Assembly (NCBI GenBank): GCA_947575805.1
Contig: CANPOY010000007.1
Location: forward strand, 16,147 to 80,146
Direction of reading: 5' to 3'
Source of the DNA: an uncultured Lachnospiraceae bacterium
GTDB taxonomy: Bacteria > Bacillota > Clostridia > Lachnospirales > Lachnospiraceae
DNA: 64,000 nucleotides
The notes under the pieces were generated by a model. It made no database searches and was not told where the DNA came from. It worked only from the letters and a program-made list of their open reading frames with translations. This document shows, piece by piece, positions 7,004-15,220 of this stretch (position 1 is its first letter; the number at the start of each line of letters is the position of its first letter). The position numbers and the translations under genes are program-made.

Positions 7004-7579
7004 TTATATTTTTTCCTGACACGTTTCCGTGCCCTCTGAAATCTCTTCCCTTTTCCTGCAGAACATGATCAAAAGATAAATACCCGTAACCACATAAAAC
7101 AGAGATGCGCCCGCCAGCAAAACAGTTCCGATAATTTCAGCCGCTTCTGCCGTCTGCGCATAAAACAACCCCGTCAGACCTTCCCCGGCAATCCGCAGCC
7201 CGAATGCACCTGCAATAACTTTAAATATCTGATCCGCGATTCCCCAGGGCTTCCTCCTGGAAAAAGTCCTGGTCCGACAGTTGGCCTTCCAGAATATCAG
7301 CCACATCAATATTTGCCAGACAGTAAAAACAAGAAGTAAAAAGCCAAGAAAGATTACCGCGAGACCTCCCACCATCCCACCGAACATTTCAAAAATAATT
7401 CCCCAGCCTACGACATCATCTATCTCTCCCTGACGATAGGCATTGATGTCACCGAACAGGCCTGCCACTGCTGCCCGAAGCACCAAAAAGCCCAGCAGCA
7501 AAAAAGCATAAAACAGGCAAATCAAAATGTTCTGGGCCAGCGCCAGGTTACGCAAACGTTTTCTTTCTTTTTCCTTCAT
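7004..7579 (-). CDS. Small four-helix membrane protein, unknown
   Basis: 191 aa, unrecognised. Four hydrophobic segments are visible (about residues 15-40, 63-95, 118-140 and 150-172), separated by a basic cytoplasmic-type loop (WKANCRTRTFSRRKPW). Both ends are charged. Its ATG overlaps the stop of the upstream GH3 gene by four bases, so the two are translationally coupled. It sits between that GH3 gene and the polyamine dehydrogenase. No catalytic or transport motif is evident, and I do not assign a function. Confidence 0.75.
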   Translation of the reverse strand: MKEKERKRLRNLALAQNILICLFYAFLLLGFLVLRAAVAGLFGDINAYRQGEIDDVVGWGIIFEMFGGMVGGLAVIFLGFLLLVFTVWQILMWLIFWKANCRTRTFSRRKPWGIADQIFKVIAGAFGLRIAGEGLTGLFYAQTAEAAEIIGTVLLAGASLFYVVTGIYLLIMFCRKREEISEGTETCQEKI

Positions 7580-8868
7580 TTGCTTCCTTCCCGAAGAATA
7601 CCCCTCTCTTCTTTCAACTTCAGTATCCTAAGCACACTCTCGTCCAGGCGTTCTTCTGAAATGACTCCTGTTTCCACTGCCTCCAGCAGGGCGTCGGCAG
7701 CCTCCTCCAAATCCGCAGGACACAGCAATATGTCTACTCCCGCCTGCACTGCCAGTACCGCAGCCTGTCCGCTGTCATAAAACTTCGTAACAGCCTTCAT
7801 CTGCAGGGAATCTGTTATAACCACGCCGTCGAAGCCCATCTCCTCCCGGAGGAGCTGCGTCACAATCCGATAGGAAAATAATGCCGGAACCTCCTCCACA
7901 TCCGTGACTGTCAGATGCCCTGTCATAACCATGTCCGCCCCTGCGTCTATTCCTGCCTGAAAGGGAAGCAGCTCCCCGTCCCTCAGCTCATCAAGGGTCT
8001 TTGTCACATATGCGGCACCTGTATGAGAGTCCGCCGCCGTATCCCCGTGGCCGGGAAAATGCTTCAGGGTACAGGCAGCTCCTCCCTCGTGGAAACCCTC
8101 CACAGCGGCGGCAACCAAAGTAGCCGCCCGGGCAAAATCGTCACTGTATGCCCGATCTCCAATCACCGTATTTTGAGGATTGGACCATACATCCGCCACC
8201 GGAGCCAAATCTGTATTAAAACCGCAGCTCACCAGATCCCCGGCAATAATCTCCGCATTTTCCATCGCTTTCTCCGGTCCCTGATCCCGGTAACTCATCA
8301 TACAGTCTATATATGTGGTTCCTACGGTGCTCATCAGGCGGTTTACCCTGCCTCCCTCCTCATCACAGGTCAGAATCAACGGAATCTTCGAACAGGCCTG
8401 CACTGAGGTGAGCATTTCCGTCACCTGCTCCCTGCTCACCATATTTGACTTATCATAGAGAAACCCTCCCACAGGGTAGTCCGCAAGCCCCTGCCGGGTC
8501 AAATCTCCCGTTTCCGTCACAGGTGACACACCTGTCACCTGTGACGGAAACACCACAAAAAGCTGGTAAACCTTTTCCCGGATACTCATATCTTCCAGCA
8601 GAAGCTCTGCCTGACTGCTCTCGGGTTCTGAAGTGGACTCCGGCTCCGGATTCTCCTGATGCTCCGGTTTCGGGGAGATTACAGGCCCCCTGCCAGACTG
8701 TGACATGTCTGTCGTGTCTTCTTCCTGCCGCGCAGCTTCGCTATTTCCTGCAGTCTGCTCCTTATTTTTTATATCCTGCATAACCACCAGGAGAGCTGCC
8801 AGAAGAACCGCCACTGCCATTCCCGCCAGCGCCGCAGACGCCGACATCTTTCCGGAACTGCCCTTCAC
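7576..8868 (-). CDS. GH3 beta-N-acetylhexosaminidase-like enzyme (NagZ type), membrane-anchored
   Basis: 430 aa from a GTG start one base after the speE stop, with GGAGG nine bases upstream; the track start lies inside speE and lacks support. N-terminal hydrophobic helix (ALAGMAVAVLLAALLVVM) without a clear cleavage site suggests a membrane anchor. It is followed by a Pro/Glu/Ser linker (residues ~45-90) and a GH3 TIM barrel. NagZ-type signatures: TCDEEGGRVNRL and KHFPGHGDTAADSH, the latter holding the His-Asp acid/base dyad that marks this subfamily. Expected role is cleavage of beta-N-acetylglucosamine links in cell-wall fragments or other glycans outside the membrane. Translational coupling to speE is unexpected for a wall enzyme. 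A perfect 19-bp inverted repeat lies in its coding region. Confidence 0.88.
   Translation of the reverse strand: MKGSSGKMSASAALAGMAVAVLLAALLVVMQDIKNKEQTAGNSEAARQEEDTTDMSQSGRGPVISPKPEHQENPEPESTSEPESSQAELLLEDMSIREKVYQLFVVFPSQVTGVSPVTETGDLTRQGLADYPVGGFLYDKSNMVSREQVTEMLTSVQACSKIPLILTCDEEGGRVNRLMSTVGTTYIDCMMSYRDQGPEKAMENAEIIAGDLVSCGFNTDLAPVADVWSNPQNTVIGDRAYSDDFARAATLVAAAVEGFHEGGAACTLKHFPGHGDTAADSHTGAAYVTKTLDELRDGELLPFQAGIDAGADMVMTGHLTVTDVEEVPALFSYRIVTQLLREEMGFDGVVITDSLQMKAVTKFYDSGQAAVLAVQAGVDILLCPADLEEAADALLEAVETGVISEERLDESVLRILKLKEERGILREGSK
8510..8551. repeat. Perfect 19-bp inverted repeat inside a coding gene
   Basis: GTTTCCGTCACAGGTGACA and its exact reverse complement are separated by four bases (cacc), inside the GH3 gene near codon 110. 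The encoded residues (FPSQVTGVSPVTE) fit the expected GH3 alignment, so the repeat was not obviously inserted. No T-tract follows, so it does not look like a terminator. Confidence 0.95.
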
Positions 8869-8869
8869 G

Positions 8870-9727
8870 CTACCGCACCTCCACTTTCCGCAACAATTTC
8901 TCCACATAAGCAGGAAGGCAGAATGCACCCTCATGGAGCTTCGGCGTGTAGTACAGAGTGTCCAACTCTCTGTTTAACCAGCGCTCCCGATCCAGGTCAT
9001 GCACCGGATGATATTTCCTGGAAGCAAAACCAAACAGCCAGTGGCCGGAAGGATAGGTGGGAATATGAGCCTGATAAACCCGGCTGATGGGAAAGGTTTC
9101 CACAATGCGCTTGTGAGCCCGCATACAGGCAGTAGCATCCGCTTCATAAAAGGGGCTTTCATGCTGGTTTACCATGATACCGTCCTCCTTCAGCGCCTTG
9201 TAACAGTTGCCGTAAAACTCCTTGGTAAACAAACCCTCCCCCGGCCCAAACGGATCCGTGGAATCCACAATAACCAGGTCATAAGCATCCTCCCGGGCGC
9301 GGACAAACCTCAGACCGTCCTCATAATGAATGTGAACCCTCTCCTCGTCCAGCCTGCAAGAGGTTCTTGGCAGAAATTCCCTGCATACCTGGATCACCTG
9401 CTCGTCAATCTCCACCAGATCAATATCCTCTATTTCCGGATATTTTGTAAGCTCTCTGATCACACCGCCGTCTCCGGCCCCAATGACAAGCACCCTTTTT
9501 ACATCAGGGTGAACAGCCATGGGTACATGCACGATCATCTCATGATAGATGAATTCGTCCTTCTCCGTCAGCATGATATATCCGTCCAGCACAAGAAACC
9601 TGCCAAACTCCGGCGACTCAAACACATCAATTCTCTGAAATTTACTTTCCCCGCTGTACAACTGCCTGTCCACACGGATTGACAGCTTTACATTAGGGGT
9701 ATGAGGCTCCGAAAACCACAACTCCAT
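8870..9727 (-). CDS. speE: Spermidine synthase (polyamine aminopropyltransferase)
   Basis: 285 aa; transfers the aminopropyl group from decarboxylated SAM to putrescine. The N-terminal beta domain is followed by the Rossmann methyltransferase-like core with VLVIGAGDGGVIREL and the acidic DLVEIDEQVI. The catalytic Asp lies in VIVDSTDPFGPGEGLF. Length is normal for bacterial SpeE. The gene follows speA by 32 bp and speD further upstream, supporting a complete decarboxylase-plus-synthase route to spermidine. The downstream GH3 GTG start begins one base after its stop. Confidence 0.96.
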   Translation of the reverse strand: MELWFSEPHTPNVKLSIRVDRQLYSGESKFQRIDVFESPEFGRFLVLDGYIMLTEKDEFIYHEMIVHVPMAVHPDVKRVLVIGAGDGGVIRELTKYPEIEDIDLVEIDEQVIQVCREFLPRTSCRLDEERVHIHYEDGLRFVRAREDAYDLVIVDSTDPFGPGEGLFTKEFYGNCYKALKEDGIMVNQHESPFYEADATACMRAHKRIVETFPISRVYQAHIPTYPSGHWLFGFASRKYHPVHDLDRERWLNRELDTLYYTPKLHEGAFCLPAYVEKLLRKVEVR

Positions 9728-9759: not shown

Positions 9760-11220
9760 CTAAGCCCAGACCTCTTTCAGCACGTTCAGCCGCTCAATCC
9801 GTGGGTCCTCCGGCCCGGTCATAGAGCAGCCCTTTTCTTTGGCATAAATTATATACTCCAGAATCTCCCCGGTGATTTCTTCTCCAGGCGCCAGAATGGG
9901 AATGCCGGGTGGATAGCACATAACAAACTCACTGCAGATGCGGCCCTTTGTCTCTGCCAGGGTCAGGGACTCTTTTTCCGCATAAAACGCGCTCTGCGGC
10001 GACACTGCTACCTTAGGTTCAACATATTCCTGCGTATACATGCCGGAATTGTCCCTTGCGTATTTTCTCCTGATCTCCGCCAGGGCTCCGATCAGCCTTT
10101 CCATATCCCGCTCCCTGTCGCCGATGGAAATATATGCCAGAACGTTGGCAATATCACCCAGCTCCATCTGAATATCATACTCGTCCCGCAGAATGTCATA
10201 AACTTCGATCCCCGCCAGACCGGTTCCCAGGGTGTTGACCGTCAGCTTCGTCTTGTCAAAATCAAAGATACTGTCCCCGTTAATTAACTCCGCAGTATAG
10301 GCATAGTATTCGCCGATGCGGTTAATCTCCTGCCTCGCATACTCCGCCAGAGCCGTGACCTTGGCAAATTCCTCCTTTCCGCGAAGTGCCAGATTCCTCC
10401 TTGAAATATCAAGGCTCGCCAACAACAGATATGAGGCACTGGTAGTCTGGGTCAGGTTAATAATCTGCCGCACATAGCCGGGGTTCATAGACACTCCCGT
10501 CAGCAAAATGGAACTTTGGGTCAGGCTTCCGCCGGATTTGTGCATACTGACGGCCGCAAGATCCGCTCCCGCTTCCATGGCCGATACCGGCATACCTTCG
10601 CCAAAATAGAAATGTGTCCCGTGCGCTTCGTCCGCCAGCACCTTCATACCGTTTGCGTGTGCAATCTTTACAATGCTCCGCAGGTCAGAACAGATGCCGT
10701 AATAAGTGGGATTATTCACCAGCACAGCCACTGCGTCCGGGTTTTCCCGGATCGTCTTCTCCACTTGAGAAACCTTCATTCCCAGGGCAATTCCCAGATC
10801 TTTGTCCATATCCGGATTCACGTATACGGGGATGGCTCCCACCAAAACCAACGCGTTAATAACGCTTCTGTGAACATTCCGGGGCAGAATAATCTTATCC
10901 CCCTTTTTGCACACGCTCAGCACCATGCTCTGCACGGAGGAGGTAGTCCCGCCCACCATAAGAAAAGCGTATGCCGCCCCAAAGGCTTCCGCCGCCATTT
11001 CTTCCGCTTCCCGAATAACCGACACCGGATGACAAAGGTTGTCCAGAGCCTTCATGGAGTTTACATCAATTCCAACACACTGCTGCCCCAGCAGCTCCAC
11101 CAGTTCCGGATTTCCACGCCCCCGCTTATGCCCCGGCACATCAAAGGGCACAATCCTGTTTTCCCGAAATTCCTCCAGCGCCTCATACACAGGTGCCCTC
11201 GACTGATTGAAACGCCCCAT
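9760..11220 (-). CDS. speA: Orn/Lys/Arg decarboxylase, fold type I (probable arginine decarboxylase)
   Basis: 486-aa PLP enzyme of the short Firmicutes class. PLP lysine in SMHKSGGSLTQ; cofactor-phosphate region around GGTTSSVQSMV; DEAHGTHFYFG holds the Asp/His that contact the ring; C-terminal Orn/Lys/Arg decarboxylase domain with YPPGIPILAPGE. By family it decarboxylates arginine, lysine or ornithine. Its place directly after speD and before speE suggests arginine to agmatine, or ornithine to putrescine, feeding spermidine synthesis. No agmatine-processing genes (aguA, aguB, speB) are present nearby, so substrate choice is inference. Confidence 0.92.
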   Translation of the reverse strand: MGRFNQSRAPVYEALEEFRENRIVPFDVPGHKRGRGNPELVELLGQQCVGIDVNSMKALDNLCHPVSVIREAEEMAAEAFGAAYAFLMVGGTTSSVQSMVLSVCKKGDKIILPRNVHRSVINALVLVGAIPVYVNPDMDKDLGIALGMKVSQVEKTIRENPDAVAVLVNNPTYYGICSDLRSIVKIAHANGMKVLADEAHGTHFYFGEGMPVSAMEAGADLAAVSMHKSGGSLTQSSILLTGVSMNPGYVRQIINLTQTTSASYLLLASLDISRRNLALRGKEEFAKVTALAEYARQEINRIGEYYAYTAELINGDSIFDFDKTKLTVNTLGTGLAGIEVYDILRDEYDIQMELGDIANVLAYISIGDRERDMERLIGALAEIRRKYARDNSGMYTQEYVEPKVAVSPQSAFYAEKESLTLAETKGRICSEFVMCYPPGIPILAPGEEITGEILEYIIYAKEKGCSMTGPEDPRIERLNVLKEVWA

Positions 11221-11265: not shown

Positions 11266-12024
11266 TTAATATACATTTCTCCCACTGAATATCTCGATCA
11301 TCTCCCTGCGCAGATTATCCATAATCTCCAGCCGAATCTTCGGCGGCAGCTCGTAGACATCGCTGTTAAACAGATACTCCTGCAGATCAATTTCTTTAAT
11401 CAGCATCTTTGTATGGAAAATATTTGCATCGTACACATTAATGTCCACAGCATCATATCTTCGCAGGATGGATTCGTCAATATAATCCTGAATGGACGTT
11501 ATCCTGTGATCCATAAACAGCTTATGGCCGCCAATATCCCTGGTGAAACCCCTGACACGGTAATCCATGGTAATAATGTCAGAGTCAAAAGAGCCAATCA
11601 GGTAATCCAGGGTGGACAGAGGCGTAATCTCTCCGCAGGTAGCCACATCAATATCCACCCGGAAGGTAGCCAGACAAGTCTCCGGATGATACTCCGGATA
11701 GGTATGCACCGTAATATGGCTCTTATCCAGATGGGCCACGGTAGTATCTCCCACCGGCACCATACTCTTTTCGGCCACCAGTATAGTTACAGAACTGCCC
11801 TGGGGCTCATAGTCCTGACTGGAAATATTCAGCACCCTGGCCCCAATCATATCCGTTACGGTAGTCAGAATATTGATCAGGCGCTCAGAATTATACTGTT
11901 TATCAATATAGGCAATATAATCCTTCTGCTCCCGCTGGCTCTTCGCATAACATACATCATAAATATTAAAACTAAGAGACTTTGTCAGATTATTGAAACC
12001 ATACAGGGAAATCTTGTCGCTCAT
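11266..12024 (-). CDS. speD: S-adenosylmethionine decarboxylase proenzyme, E. coli (class 1A) type
   Basis: 252 aa from ATG-AGC-GAC with AGGAGG six bases upstream; the track ORF adds 12 residues. Makes decarboxylated SAM for SpeE. The self-processing site is recognisable: KSHITVHTYPEYHPE matches the segment of E. coli SpeD in which Ser becomes the pyruvoyl group. Conserved LYGFNNLTKSLSFNIYD start and long chain length mark the class 1A type rather than the short Bacillus/Thermotoga type. First gene of the polyamine cluster; a structured leader RNA with a terminator lies about 100 nt upstream. Confidence 0.95.
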   Translation of the reverse strand: MSDKISLYGFNNLTKSLSFNIYDVCYAKSQREQKDYIAYIDKQYNSERLINILTTVTDMIGARVLNISSQDYEPQGSSVTILVAEKSMVPVGDTTVAHLDKSHITVHTYPEYHPETCLATFRVDIDVATCGEITPLSTLDYLIGSFDSDIITMDYRVRGFTRDIGGHKLFMDHRITSIQDYIDESILRRYDAVDINVYDANIFHTKMLIKEIDLQEYLFNSDVYELPPKIRLEIMDNLRREMIEIFSGRNVY

Positions 12025-12127
12025 AAACAGCCTCCTCTCATGTTGATCCTCATGCTGCACCGGCAGCCCGGATAGTAATAAAACGCCGGGGCTTTCTTTT
12101 CTCTGTGCAGGCTTTACGCATAAACTT

Positions 12128-12158
12128 AAAAAAGCAAGCGATGCCTTACATCACTTGC
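12128..12158 (-). terminator. Intrinsic terminator ending the speD leader RNA
   Basis: Minus strand: GCAAGTGATG, five-base loop, CATCGCTTGC (10 bp with one G-U pair), then TTTTTT. It lies ~100 nt before the speD start. An upstream TTGCCTT in the leader is complementary to AAGGCAA at the 5' shoulder of the stem, so an alternative antiterminator fold is possible. Confidence 0.85.
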
Positions 12159-12481
12159 CTTGAAAATCTGTCTGCTTATGCCGTAACGCCGTTTAAAGGC
12201 ACTGCCGCGCACTTTATCTGCGGAATCGTTCAAAACCGGCAGGCAGGCCGTTCCTGCTTCTCCGGTATAACAGCTGCGTATGGACAGATATGTGGTTTTT
12301 AGAGTCTATATAGCAAATATTTTACTTTTACTACTCTTATTGACCGTTTCACAAGTTAGATGTGCATCAGCACCGGTTTATAGTAACCAACTTATAAAAT
12401 TTGAGCTTTTAACTCAATCAATAAGGCAACCCCGTTGCCAAAATATTTGCATGGAAGACTCTCAGCCCCTGTTTTCCATAC
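12128..12481 (-). ncRNA. Candidate structured leader RNA or independent ncRNA upstream of speD
   Basis: About 350 nt between a good sigma-A promoter and an intrinsic terminator, with no ORF of note. On the minus strand the RNA shows nested complementarity. GGCAAC/GTTGCC forms a hairpin. CTTATTGA pairs perfectly with TCAATAAG, about 75 nt apart, closing a branched domain. This domain holds TTGAG/CTCAA and an AAGTT/AACTT stem that encloses GGTT/AACC and GTGC/GCAC arms. Further on come AGAGT/ACTCT and GCAGG/CCTGC flanked by CCGG pairs. It does not match tmRNA, RNase P, SRP, SAM, lysine, T-box or TPP signatures as I know them. No clear second promoter lies between it and speD, so attenuation control is plausible; an independent small RNA is the alternative. 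Confidence 0.6.
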
Positions 12482-12487
12482 ATTCAT

Positions 12488-12517
12488 ACTATATCATGAA
12501 ATCTCTCAAAAAGTCAA
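12488..12517 (-). promoter_or_regulatory. Sigma-A promoter for the speD leader RNA
   Basis: TTGACT and TATAGT on the minus strand, 18-bp spacing, placing the start near position 12481. It partly overlaps the end of a 13-codon micro-ORF. Confidence 0.65.
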
Positions 12518-12555
12518 ATAGAATTTCCGTCCTGCGCCTTTCCTGCCGGCGTCAT
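12514..12555 (-). CDS. Possible 13-aa micro-ORF downstream of a small gene
   Basis: ATG with AAAGGAG at good spacing, reading MTPAGKAQDGNSI then TGA. It begins 19 bp after the stop of the 113-aa gene, and its end overlaps the leader promoter. It could be a true micro-peptide, a decayed start of a longer gene, or chance. No similarity recognised. Confidence 0.25.
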   Translation of the reverse strand: MTPAGKAQDGNSI

Positions 12556-12574
12556 AATCTGACACTCCTTTGCC

Positions 12575-12916
12575 CTACAATTCCAACTCCTCCTGGCAGT
12601 ACTGCAAATCTTCTTCTATCAGGCCGATACCCACGAAGACCGCCCAAACATAGGGCGCGCCGTAAACGTTCAGGGTCTTAGGACCCACAATCCGCCTCGG
12701 CGCGTCTTCCCCACACTGATCCCTCTCCAGCTTATCATATGCCTTCTCAAAGGTGCTGCGAGTAATGGACCGCTCCCGCCTGTCGGTAAAAAGCTCTCCG
12801 CCCTTTATGGAATACACAAAGGGCAGTCCTTTTTTTGTGGCAAAGCTTTCTCCTTCATGCCGCGTGATCACATCCCACAGATTGGTAACCGTTATCTGAT
12901 CCCTGTTGAATTTCAT
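12575..12916 (-). CDS. Small conserved-looking cytoplasmic protein, unknown
   Basis: 113 aa with a strong ribosome site (AAAGGAG) before the ATG and a promoter at ordinary distance. Soluble, mixed composition, no membrane segment. The middle is basic and polar (RRERSITRSTFEKAYDKLER) and the end acidic (EEDLQYCQEELEL). The segment FVYSIKGGELFTDRRERSITRSTF hints at a substrate- or nucleic-acid-binding fold, but I do not recognise the family. It lies alone between the DUF4097 operon and the polyamine leader. Confidence 0.7.
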   Translation of the reverse strand: MKFNRDQITVTNLWDVITRHEGESFATKKGLPFVYSIKGGELFTDRRERSITRSTFEKAYDKLERDQCGEDAPRRIVGPKTLNVYGAPYVWAVFVGIGLIEEDLQYCQEELEL

Positions 12917-13030: not shown

Positions 13031-14122
13031 CTATTTTTTTCTTATTGTTATGTCTCCGCTGGTGGTGGAAATCTTTACTTGGTGTTCCCCACTGCCCACA
13101 ATTCCTGCAGCATGGTTTCCCTTCTTGGAAAAACTCAGATTTCCGTCAAAAAACGTATTGATGTCCCCGCTGGTGGTGTCTGCGTCAAAATTCAGAGACA
13201 TTGTCTCCGGCAGCTCAAGGGCCACTTCACCGCTGGTGGTATTGACTGAAATGTCCCCGGTAAGCTCTCCCACGGAAAACAGTATATCTCCACTGGTGCT
13301 ATGCAGACTTCCGTCTCCCTGATCTCCCCAAAGAAGAAGTTCTCCGCTGGTGGTATTGGCCGAAATGCTGCCTGTAAGGCCGTCCACCCGGACATCCCCT
13401 GAGACGCTGCTTATCCTCCTGTCCCCTGCACCACCGGAAATAATAATCTCACCGCTGGTACTGGAACAAGATACAAAACCTTCCGCTTCTTTCACAGATA
13501 TATCTCCGCTGGTGGTGCTTATATTGATTTCGTCGGCCTCCAGCATCGGCAGCCGGATTTCTCCGCTGGTAGAAGATATATTGATCTTTTCGGCCTTAAG
13601 CTTCTGACTGCCGGCATAAATATCCCCGCTGGTACTGATCAGGTTCAGCTGTCCGTTCAGCAGAAGATCCTTGGTTATGGAAATCTCGCCGCTGACAGTA
13701 GCAATTTTCAGCTCACCGGAATAGTCCGCAGGAACATAAATTTCCGTATTAATATATTTATTGATATTAAATAAGACTTTGAAACGCCGCGGCCCCTTTA
13801 CCGTAAGCTTTCCCGACTGACATTTCATCTTTGCCAGTTCATCGTCAGCTGGCTCATAGCTGGCATACTCACGTATAATAACGGAATCTCCCTCTGCTTC
13901 ATACAAAGTTACATCATTGCTGCTCTGTGTATACTCGACATAAATACTGCTAATATCATCCACGGGGAATTCCTGCTCCTGAACCAGTCGGTATCGGCCT
14001 TCGGCACTCCCGCTCGTGATGCCTCCCGAAAACCGGCCGCTGAGTCCTATTCCCAACAGGACGCAGAGCCCAAGTATTACGACGCATAATATTACAGTCA
14101 ATAATATCTTTACATTTCTCAT
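13031..14122 (-). CDS. DUF4097-family beta-repeat protein with N-terminal membrane anchor
   Basis: 363 aa. One N-terminal hydrophobic helix (residues ~5-28, ILLTVILCVVILGLCVLLGIG) is followed by an outside domain made of short beta repeats with the core STTSGDI or STSGEI about every 18-21 residues, expected to wind into a beta-helix or prism. The repeats are visible in the DNA as a recurring ccgctggtggt on the plus strand. Third gene of a PadR/DUF1700/DUF4097 operon; its ATG overlaps the previous stop in TAATG. In Firmicutes this trio is common and is thought to respond to envelope stress, but its function is not firmly known. Confidence 0.9.
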   Translation of the reverse strand: MRNVKILLTVILCVVILGLCVLLGIGLSGRFSGGITSGSAEGRYRLVQEQEFPVDDISSIYVEYTQSSNDVTLYEAEGDSVIIREYASYEPADDELAKMKCQSGKLTVKGPRRFKVLFNINKYINTEIYVPADYSGELKIATVSGEISITKDLLLNGQLNLISTSGDIYAGSQKLKAEKINISSTSGEIRLPMLEADEINISTTSGDISVKEAEGFVSCSSTSGEIIISGGAGDRRISSVSGDVRVDGLTGSISANTTSGELLLWGDQGDGSLHSTSGDILFSVGELTGDISVNTTSGEVALELPETMSLNFDADTTSGDINTFFDGNLSFSKKGNHAAGIVGSGEHQVKISTTSGDITIRKK

Positions 14123-14811
14123 TATGGTCTCTTCTCCTTATCCATCCGTAAACTGTTGATCAACACCGCCACTGACTGCACGCAGGCAGCTATCAGGAAA
14201 ATGACCCAGGTAATATGCCAGCCGCCCACGGTAAAGCTGATCAGAAAATACAGCACCAGTGCGGCCGTCCAAATGATACAGCTGATGGCACCCATGATCT
14301 CTTTGTTCCTGCCGCTGCGATATCTTTCCTGCTGAAATTCTTCCACCATATTCATGCTTTCCTTTTTACTGTAGCCGGGATACATATTCGCCGCGTAGAC
14401 CAGCATAATGGTGGGTGCAATGCAAATCAGCCCGGCTGCTACAAGTCCTATCCCGTCAAAAGGATAAGCCGGAACCACAGCACTTATCATTTCCAGACTA
14501 AAGAAGATCACTCCCGCAAAAATGTACAATCCCACCGCCACCGCTTTCAGCATGGCACGCTTTTTTCTGTCTTTCTCCGGCAGCTCCAACAGGCTTTTCT
14601 CTTCCAGATCGTCAAAAAGCTCGTTCACATCGCCGACAGACTGAATCACATTCTGGTAGGCATCTTCTTCCGAATACCTCCCCTCCTGTATCATATCCTC
14701 ATATTTATCCAGAGCGTTCTGGGTCAGCTCCTGTTTCAGCTCCAATGCCTTCCGCGTCTTCGGCGCTTCCTCAAATAACTGGTTAAAATACTGTATAATT
14801 TTCTCTTTCAT
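14122..14811 (-). CDS. DUF1700/HAAS-type membrane protein
   Basis: 229 aa from the ATG preceded by AAAGGGAG; the track start is ten codons longer without a site. The N-terminal ~75 residues form a helical, charged HAAS-like domain (KTRKALELKQELTQNALDKY, DAYQNVIQSVGDVNELFDDL). The rest has four hydrophobic helices. HAAS domains in these operons are linked to the neighbouring PadR regulator, perhaps as its partner. One-base overlap with the DUF4097 gene downstream. Confidence 0.85.
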   Translation of the reverse strand: MKEKIIQYFNQLFEEAPKTRKALELKQELTQNALDKYEDMIQEGRYSEEDAYQNVIQSVGDVNELFDDLEEKSLLELPEKDRKKRAMLKAVAVGLYIFAGVIFFSLEMISAVVPAYPFDGIGLVAAGLICIAPTIMLVYAANMYPGYSKKESMNMVEEFQQERYRSGRNKEIMGAISCIIWTAALVLYFLISFTVGGWHITWVIFLIAACVQSVAVLINSLRMDKEKRP

Positions 14812-14890
14812 TCTTTCTCCCTTTCCGCCAAGATGAGGCAATCACCTTATAGTACCTGCCTCTTTGATAGTGACATTTAATGTACCGCTC

Positions 14891-15220
14891 TCATTGCAGC
14901 AAATGGTCTATCATTTCCTTTGCCTCTTCCCATTCCTGCTTGTAGCTTAGGTAGGCCTGCCTGCCGAAGTCGGTGATGGCATAATATCGGCGTCTGGCCC
15001 CTGTGGTCTCGTCACCCCAATATGTCCGAATAGAGCCCGCCTGCTCCAGTCTGCGGAAGGCGGAATACAATGTGGCTTCCTTTAATTCATAGCGGTTATT
15101 GGTCTTTTTCATAATATCCTTGTTAATCTGGTAACCGTAGCTGTCCTTTTCCAGAAGGTGAGACAGGATGATCGCCTCTGTATGCCCCCGCAAAATGTCC
15201 GATGTAATAGACAAGGTCAT
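14891..15220 (-). CDS. PadR-family transcriptional regulator
   Basis: 109 aa: winged helix (GHTEAIILSHLLEKDSYGYQI, LKEATLYSAFRRLEQAGSI) and the short C-terminal dimer helix of subfamily 2. The signature ATLYSAFRRLE and the ARRRYYAITDFGR wing are diagnostic. First gene of the operon with the HAAS membrane protein and the DUF4097 protein. Likely represses its own promoter, where a short dyad overlaps the -10 element. Confidence 0.95.
   Translation of the reverse strand: MTLSITSDILRGHTEAIILSHLLEKDSYGYQINKDIMKKTNNRYELKEATLYSAFRRLEQAGSIRTYWGDETTGARRRYYAITDFGRQAYLSYKQEWEEAKEMIDHLLQ

Follow-up and report, generated by a model that had tools for sequence, protein, structure and literature searches.

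A conserved leader RNA preceding polyamine genes in Bacillota: a predicted riboswitch acting through transcription attenuation

The polyamine operon of the window (the whole 64,000-nt stretch of DNA analysed here) lies on the minus strand, as do all features described below unless stated otherwise. It contains speD, which encodes S-adenosylmethionine decarboxylase (11266–12024; TIGR03331, 9.1e-117), a speA-type Orn/Lys/Arg decarboxylase gene (9760–11220; PF01276, 1.4e-66) and the spermidine synthase gene speE (8870–9727; TIGR00417, 1.7e-95), the end of which is overlapped by a glycoside hydrolase family 3-like gene (7576–8934). Upstream of speD stands a sigma-A promoter (12488–12517) with 10/12 matches, composed of TTGACT (12517–12512), 18 nt and a TG-extended TATAGT (12493–12488). 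Counted from its inferred start through the last base of the U tract, the predicted leader RNA is ~355 nt long (12128–12482), a reading that draws on its fold and its homologs. A first-pass annotation of the same DNA had proposed this promoter, a highly structured RNA of about 350 nt with several inner stems, and the lack of any other promoter for the polyamine genes; all of this holds. Besides 12517–12488, no promoter-like site is found from the upstream gene to speD. The minimum free energy (MFE) of the segment 12482–12115 is −119 kcal/mol, compared with −93.6 ± 4.4 kcal/mol for shuffled sequences (z −5.74), and none of 100 shuffles folds as low.

Two other readings of the leader region were considered and set aside. 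Open reading frames on the plus strand (12105–12302 and 12280–12681) are regarded as chance, and a leader peptide, for which the sole in-frame reading runs through helix P6 (TTG ATT GAG TTA ...), was rejected on the ground that both the length and the sequence of P6 vary in relatives. Upstream of the RNA promoter lies a conserved small ORF of 113 aa (12575–12916); a similar C-terminus is visible upstream of the RNA in two homologous loci (L002 and L007). Beyond it lies a gene for a protein rich in SGDI/TSGE repeats (13031–15220), followed by genes for a membrane protein and a PadR-like regulator, a gene set resembling the usual regulator-membrane cassette.

A DNA search showed that the 5′ part of the leader is conserved. 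An aptamer-like domain of ~200 nt (12284–12482; query positions 1–199) is 90–96% identical in several genomes of the same genus, whereas the spacer before the terminator is unconserved; chance matches of ~18–35 nt from this search (L018–L030) were left out. Only the RNA sequence was used to gather homologous loci, either through a covariance model of the core (R1, 154 positions) or through an independent 22-nt pattern. The model matches 96 of 397 genomes of Lachnospiraceae, the family of the window, and 24 of 399 genomes sampled across the phylum. The pattern recovered at least 118 stretches in genomes of named species; the first 80 are all true members by score, as are the remaining ones. The core is thereby found in Bacilli, Clostridia and Negativicutes, and the genera among the matches listed include Bacillus, Neobacillus, Heyndrickxia, Paenibacillus, Acetobacterium, Faecalibacterium, Blautia, Acidaminococcus and Phascolarctobacterium. 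It should be noted that a few loci represent one genome counted twice. A promoter-like site with at least 9/12 matches stands upstream of the RNA in 60% of loci, with a mean score of 8.2 versus 5.9 in shuffled sequences.

The conserved domain is predicted to fold into a set of helices. P1 is a hairpin (12451–12479) formed by ATGGAA (12479–12474) and TTCCAT (12456–12451). P2 pairs GCAAATATTTT (12440–12450) with AAAATATTTGC (12313–12323), and encloses the P4 hairpin GGCAAC-loop-GTTGCC (12425–12439), in which all six pairs show two-sided changes. The perfect long-range pair of the first-pass annotation corresponds to P5, in which TTATTGA (12418–12424) pairs with TCAATAA (12337–12343), the latter followed by the conserved GAGTAGTAAAAGT; the additional C-G pair that had made it an 8-mer shares a base with P4. 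Next come the P6 hairpin TTGAG/CTCAA (12401–12417), which varies in length among relatives, and P7 (12399–12389 with 12357–12347), which is capped by a three-way junction with P8 (12388–12385 with 12378–12375) and P9 (12373–12370 with 12365–12362). The whole P7-P8-P9 element (12347–12399) is indicated by conservation, arm permutation and individual folds.

Covariation in homologues, which had been suggested as a check, is present in six of these helices. When arm matching within each sequence is compared with arms permuted between sequences, a measure that ignores ancestry, z is 8.5 for P1 (n = 124), 10.7 for P2 (n = 126), 13.5 for P4, 10.3 for P6, 12.4 for P8 and 9.4 for P9. P5 and P7 are nearly invariant and hence give no covariation signal; in P5, five of the seven pairs are constant across 81 distinct sequences. 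Over the whole structure, compensatory changes occur in 84 cells, compared with 19.9 ± 3.3 in shuffles, and sliding the register cuts the paired share from 95% to less than 48%. The loop of P1 contains GAGAGTC, which is complementary to the conserved 3′ tail AGACTCT (12301–12307); the tail, as TATATAGACTCT, is present in 103 of 124 sequences. A pseudoknot between the two is plausible; its z of 0.1 was obtained on near-invariant sequence, on which permutation is uninformative.

Wherever sufficient sequence follows the RNA (196 loci), the first gene after it is without exception a polyamine gene. Of 164 loci collected at first, eight, each with less than 350 nt of downstream sequence, were left out; the other 156 comprise 72 with a speA-type decarboxylase, 52 with speD, 26 with carboxynorspermidine synthase and 6 with potA as the first gene. 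A further 40 of 40 loci, selected so as to cover the weakest family matches (E up to 0.006) and a phylum-wide sample, agree. In more distant members, the RNA directly precedes an Orn/Lys/Arg decarboxylase gene in place of speD, and at six loci (L034, L080, L097, L163, L171 and L173) it is found before genes of a potABC-type polyamine transporter, not biosynthesis genes. NCBIfam and Pfam models confirm adenosylmethionine decarboxylase, Orn/Lys/Arg decarboxylase, spermidine synthase, carboxynorspermidine decarboxylase and the PotA-like ATPase; carboxynorspermidine synthase scores 418 bits, below the strict cut-off of 800, and matches no other family. The downstream genes represent non-homologous routes with spermidine as their common term. 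Among 40 genomes of the family, speE is present in 20 of 20 that bear the RNA and in 7 of 20 that lack it; these seven, which carry speE without a detected RNA, count against the explanation proposed below.

An intrinsic terminator separates the RNA from the first gene at 152 of 156 loci, versus 66 in dinucleotide shuffles. In the window this terminator, AAGGCAAGTGATGTAAGGCATCGCTTGCTTTTTT (12128–12161), is a strong one and has a stem of 14 pairs (12161–12131), not 10 as first annotated; the run of six T after it and its distance of about 100 nt from speD were given correctly, the latter being 104 nt to the ATG at 12024. In homologous loci, the T tract lies a median of ~51.5–53 nt from the start codon, which leaves little space for a second promoter, and a 9/12 promoter site occurs within this interval in 6% of loci.

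The 5′ arm of the terminator has a preferred partner within the conserved domain, namely the 3′ strand of P9-P7. In the window, GCACATCTAACTTG (12352–12365) stands opposite CAAGTGATGT (12156–12147). When the leader is scanned with a 16-nt window, the mean pairing energy of 147 loci shows a single sharp peak of −11.6 kcal/mol at this strand, compared with −5.1 kcal/mol for the mean of all windows and −6.7 kcal/mol for the best competing region, near P4-P5. Pairing of each arm with the strand of its own locus averages −10.78 kcal/mol, versus −8.89 (sd 0.17) kcal/mol when strands are permuted between loci. The peak persists in 83 representatives left by a 60% identity redundancy cut (z 9.5), and the best window falls on this strand in 61% of loci, with 11% expected by chance. 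The first-pass annotation had suggested a different pair for the switch, TTGCCTT/AAGGCAA. In the window the two pairings are about equal (−9.2 kcal/mol for TTGCCTT/AAGGCAA and −8.2 kcal/mol for the P9-P7 strand), yet over all loci the former is the weaker, and it cannot be maintained as the conserved switch. The P9-P7 strand cannot pair with the terminator arm while P7/P9 or the terminator is formed. The predicted arrangement of aptamer, antiterminator and terminator is thus conserved.

In our opinion, the leader is best explained as a cis-acting riboswitch of the OFF type that attenuates transcription in response to a polyamine, most likely spermidine; we assign this reading a probability of roughly 0.7. 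The computation itself shows that the structure is conserved, that it keeps its position in front of polyamine genes, that a terminator is present and that the P9-P7 strand is conserved in its complementarity to the terminator arm; from this we infer that a ligand binds, which ligand it is and in which direction it acts. According to the model, the nascent leader would fold into P1, P2, P4, P5, P6 and the P7-P8-P9 three-way junction. A ligand stabilizing P7 and P9 would keep their 3′ strand occupied and, because the antiterminator excludes both P7/P9 and the terminator, would favor termination, so that speD-speA-speE are switched off. When polyamine is scarce, the 3′ strand of P9-P7 would pair instead with the terminator 5′ arm, forming an antiterminator and permitting read-through. 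An OFF switch of this kind would fit feedback by the end product. In the window, before the 3′ arm of the terminator is made, the aptamer fold (−97.7 kcal/mol) is favored over the antiterminator fold (−88.6 kcal/mol) by ~9 kcal/mol, and the unconstrained MFE fold is the OFF state, terminator included. The switch is therefore not predictable from energy alone in the window, and the ON state would need kinetic or unmodelled effects. Like riboswitches in general, the RNA is a conserved structured leader associated with particular genes, with an expression platform that competes on comparative grounds, a point that the energies of the window do not confirm.

The identity of the ligand deserves separate consideration. 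The first-pass annotation had thought a switch for polyamine, SAM or arginine conceivable, and of these the tie to polyamines is borne out by the downstream genes. SAM and arginine have lost much of their plausibility: the RNA would also control carboxynorspermidine genes and potABC-type transporters, and neither compound is used by these. A riboswitch for some other metabolite of the pathway, such as putrescine, agmatine, arginine, decarboxylated SAM or norspermidine/spermine, would suit the fact that speA and speD encode early steps, and putrescine serves as a substrate in both routes to spermidine as well as for Pot transporters. Carboxynorspermidine enzymes and Pot transporters use no arginine, agmatine or decarboxylated SAM, and leaders of the carboxynorspermidine synthase/decarboxylase (26) and potA (6) genes accordingly speak against these three, while what all four gene sets appear to have in common is spermidine, as their product or their cargo. 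We therefore regard another metabolite as unlikely. It should be noted that the binding of polyamines to RNA is unspecific, so that a case for specific recognition is harder to make.

The same attenuator might instead be operated by a polyamine-sensing protein bound to the leader, given that complex conserved leaders can serve as protein targets and that metabolite binding is here deduced. Large conserved folds with multi-helix junctions are, however, typical of metabolite aptamers, and the elaborate, strongly conserved fold of ~200 nt found here is of this kind. Moreover, a co-inherited regulator would be required, given that the RNA is spread over Bacilli, Clostridia and Negativicutes and precedes different genes. 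A protein sensor is, in our estimate, quite unlikely.

A part of this RNA is already catalogued. RF02440 (SpF59_sRNA, or “ldcC RNA”) is a 54-nt, pseudoknot-like family typed as “Gene; sRNA” in Rfam. It is absent from the window (both at the gathering score of 37.2 bits and at E 10) and from the whole genome to which the window belongs, and it is not matched in ten of the homologous loci (L001–L008, L016 and L017), the closest relatives among them. It adjoins the core in L009–L015, L034 and 11 further loci (8 of 20 loci in one scan and 11 of 15 in another), and where present is inserted just 5′ of P4. The pseudoknot of this accessory domain has an arm-permutation z of 7.2, ancestry being ignored. 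In the family sample, RF02440 occurs in 66 genomes, 65 of which also carry the core, with adjacent positions among those listed; the single exception has a degenerate core right after the domain. In the phylum sample, all 17 genomes with RF02440 carry the core as well. Conversely, 31 of 96 core-bearing family genomes have the core without RF02440. By comparison of these loci, RF02440 is a dispensable subdomain of a wider RNA, and the window holds the core-only form. The Rfam model leaves out the conserved core, the P7-P9 junction and the terminator wiring. The part of the wider RNA in Rfam is 54 nt long, and its name points to the leader of a lysine decarboxylase gene; work by Weinberg published in NAR in 2017 is the likely source of that name.

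The Rfam type implies a trans-acting small RNA that merely adjoins the operon. The 82-nt F59 of Streptococcus pneumoniae, located between SP0915 and SP0916, indeed appears in a survey of small RNAs (PMC3395615); SP_0916 encodes an arginine decarboxylase, with speE and nspC nearby (PMC7998104, PMC6727871). A terminated leader would likewise show up as a short RNA, and, judging from its map position, the annotated F59 probably represents such a leader, that of the polyamine operon in the pneumococcus. The RNA always shares the strand of a polyamine gene and lies directly upstream of it; the terminator before the start codon is wired to the RNA fold, and an independent function in trans seems very improbable. 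The inclusion of the terminator in the MFE fold would also suit a structured 5′ UTR that terminates constitutively and senses nothing. This reading is scarcely credible, given that the competition involving the terminator arm and the P9-P7 strand is conserved and that paired and unpaired motifs are nearly invariant across phylum-wide samples.

The leader also differs from other known RNAs. The window matches none of 4227 Rfam families, T-box and other cis-regulators included, at gathering scores, so the recommended search yielded no unrelated ncRNA; at E 10, weak matches to sok, skipping-rope, mir-1822 and DAOA-AS1 (E 0.1 to 8.5) are far below the cut-offs and attributable to chance. The earlier statement that the RNA belongs to no known class is therefore accurate for the window, but not for relatives in which RF02440 forms a 5′ subdomain. 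The spermidine riboswitch already known is a close variant of SAM-I, with 13 examples reported (Salvail et al. 2023, PMC10853860); rare as it is, it is the sole validated bacterial polyamine riboswitch found in the literature searched. It shares with the window RNA the proposed ligand, downstream polyamine genes and termination-based OFF control, but its fold is different, and a search of the window for SAM-I (RF00162) finds nothing up to E 10. The potE, odc1 (Brewer et al. 2021, PMC8632094) and speF motifs are likewise candidate leaders before polyamine genes; they are described in Veillonella or alphaproteobacteria and, going by these descriptions, lack the features of the window RNA. 6S RNA (RF00013), a promoter-proximal structured RNA of similar length, was discounted: the genome has its 6S RNA elsewhere, and the window does not match RF00013. 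No description of the core was found in the literature searched.

On balance, we think it probable that the RNA represents a second, widespread natural class of polyamine riboswitch across Bacillota, structurally unrelated to the first, of which the pneumococcal SpF59 domain is only a removable piece; the window would carry the minimal form. If so, a common and independent class spanning gut commensals (Faecalibacterium, Blautia), Bacillus and Paenibacillus would govern two pathways of spermidine synthesis together with import, and would reveal how widely polyamines are measured in Bacillota, major gut species and possibly the pneumococcus among them. An Rfam “sRNA” would become a cis-regulator whose expression platform is known and whose ligand can be tested, and a comparison case would be at hand for how RNA specifically binds a flexible polycation.

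Two unusual loci should be mentioned. In one (L238:643–1211; contig 59 of genome G256), the RNA occurs twice, ~390 nt apart, before speD; the copies are identical as far as read and could represent a tandem arrangement or an assembly artefact. In another (L237, genome G146), the RNA is degenerate, retaining the RF02440-like domain and P4-P5 with P6–P9 mostly gone, and still precedes a terminator and a decarboxylase gene.
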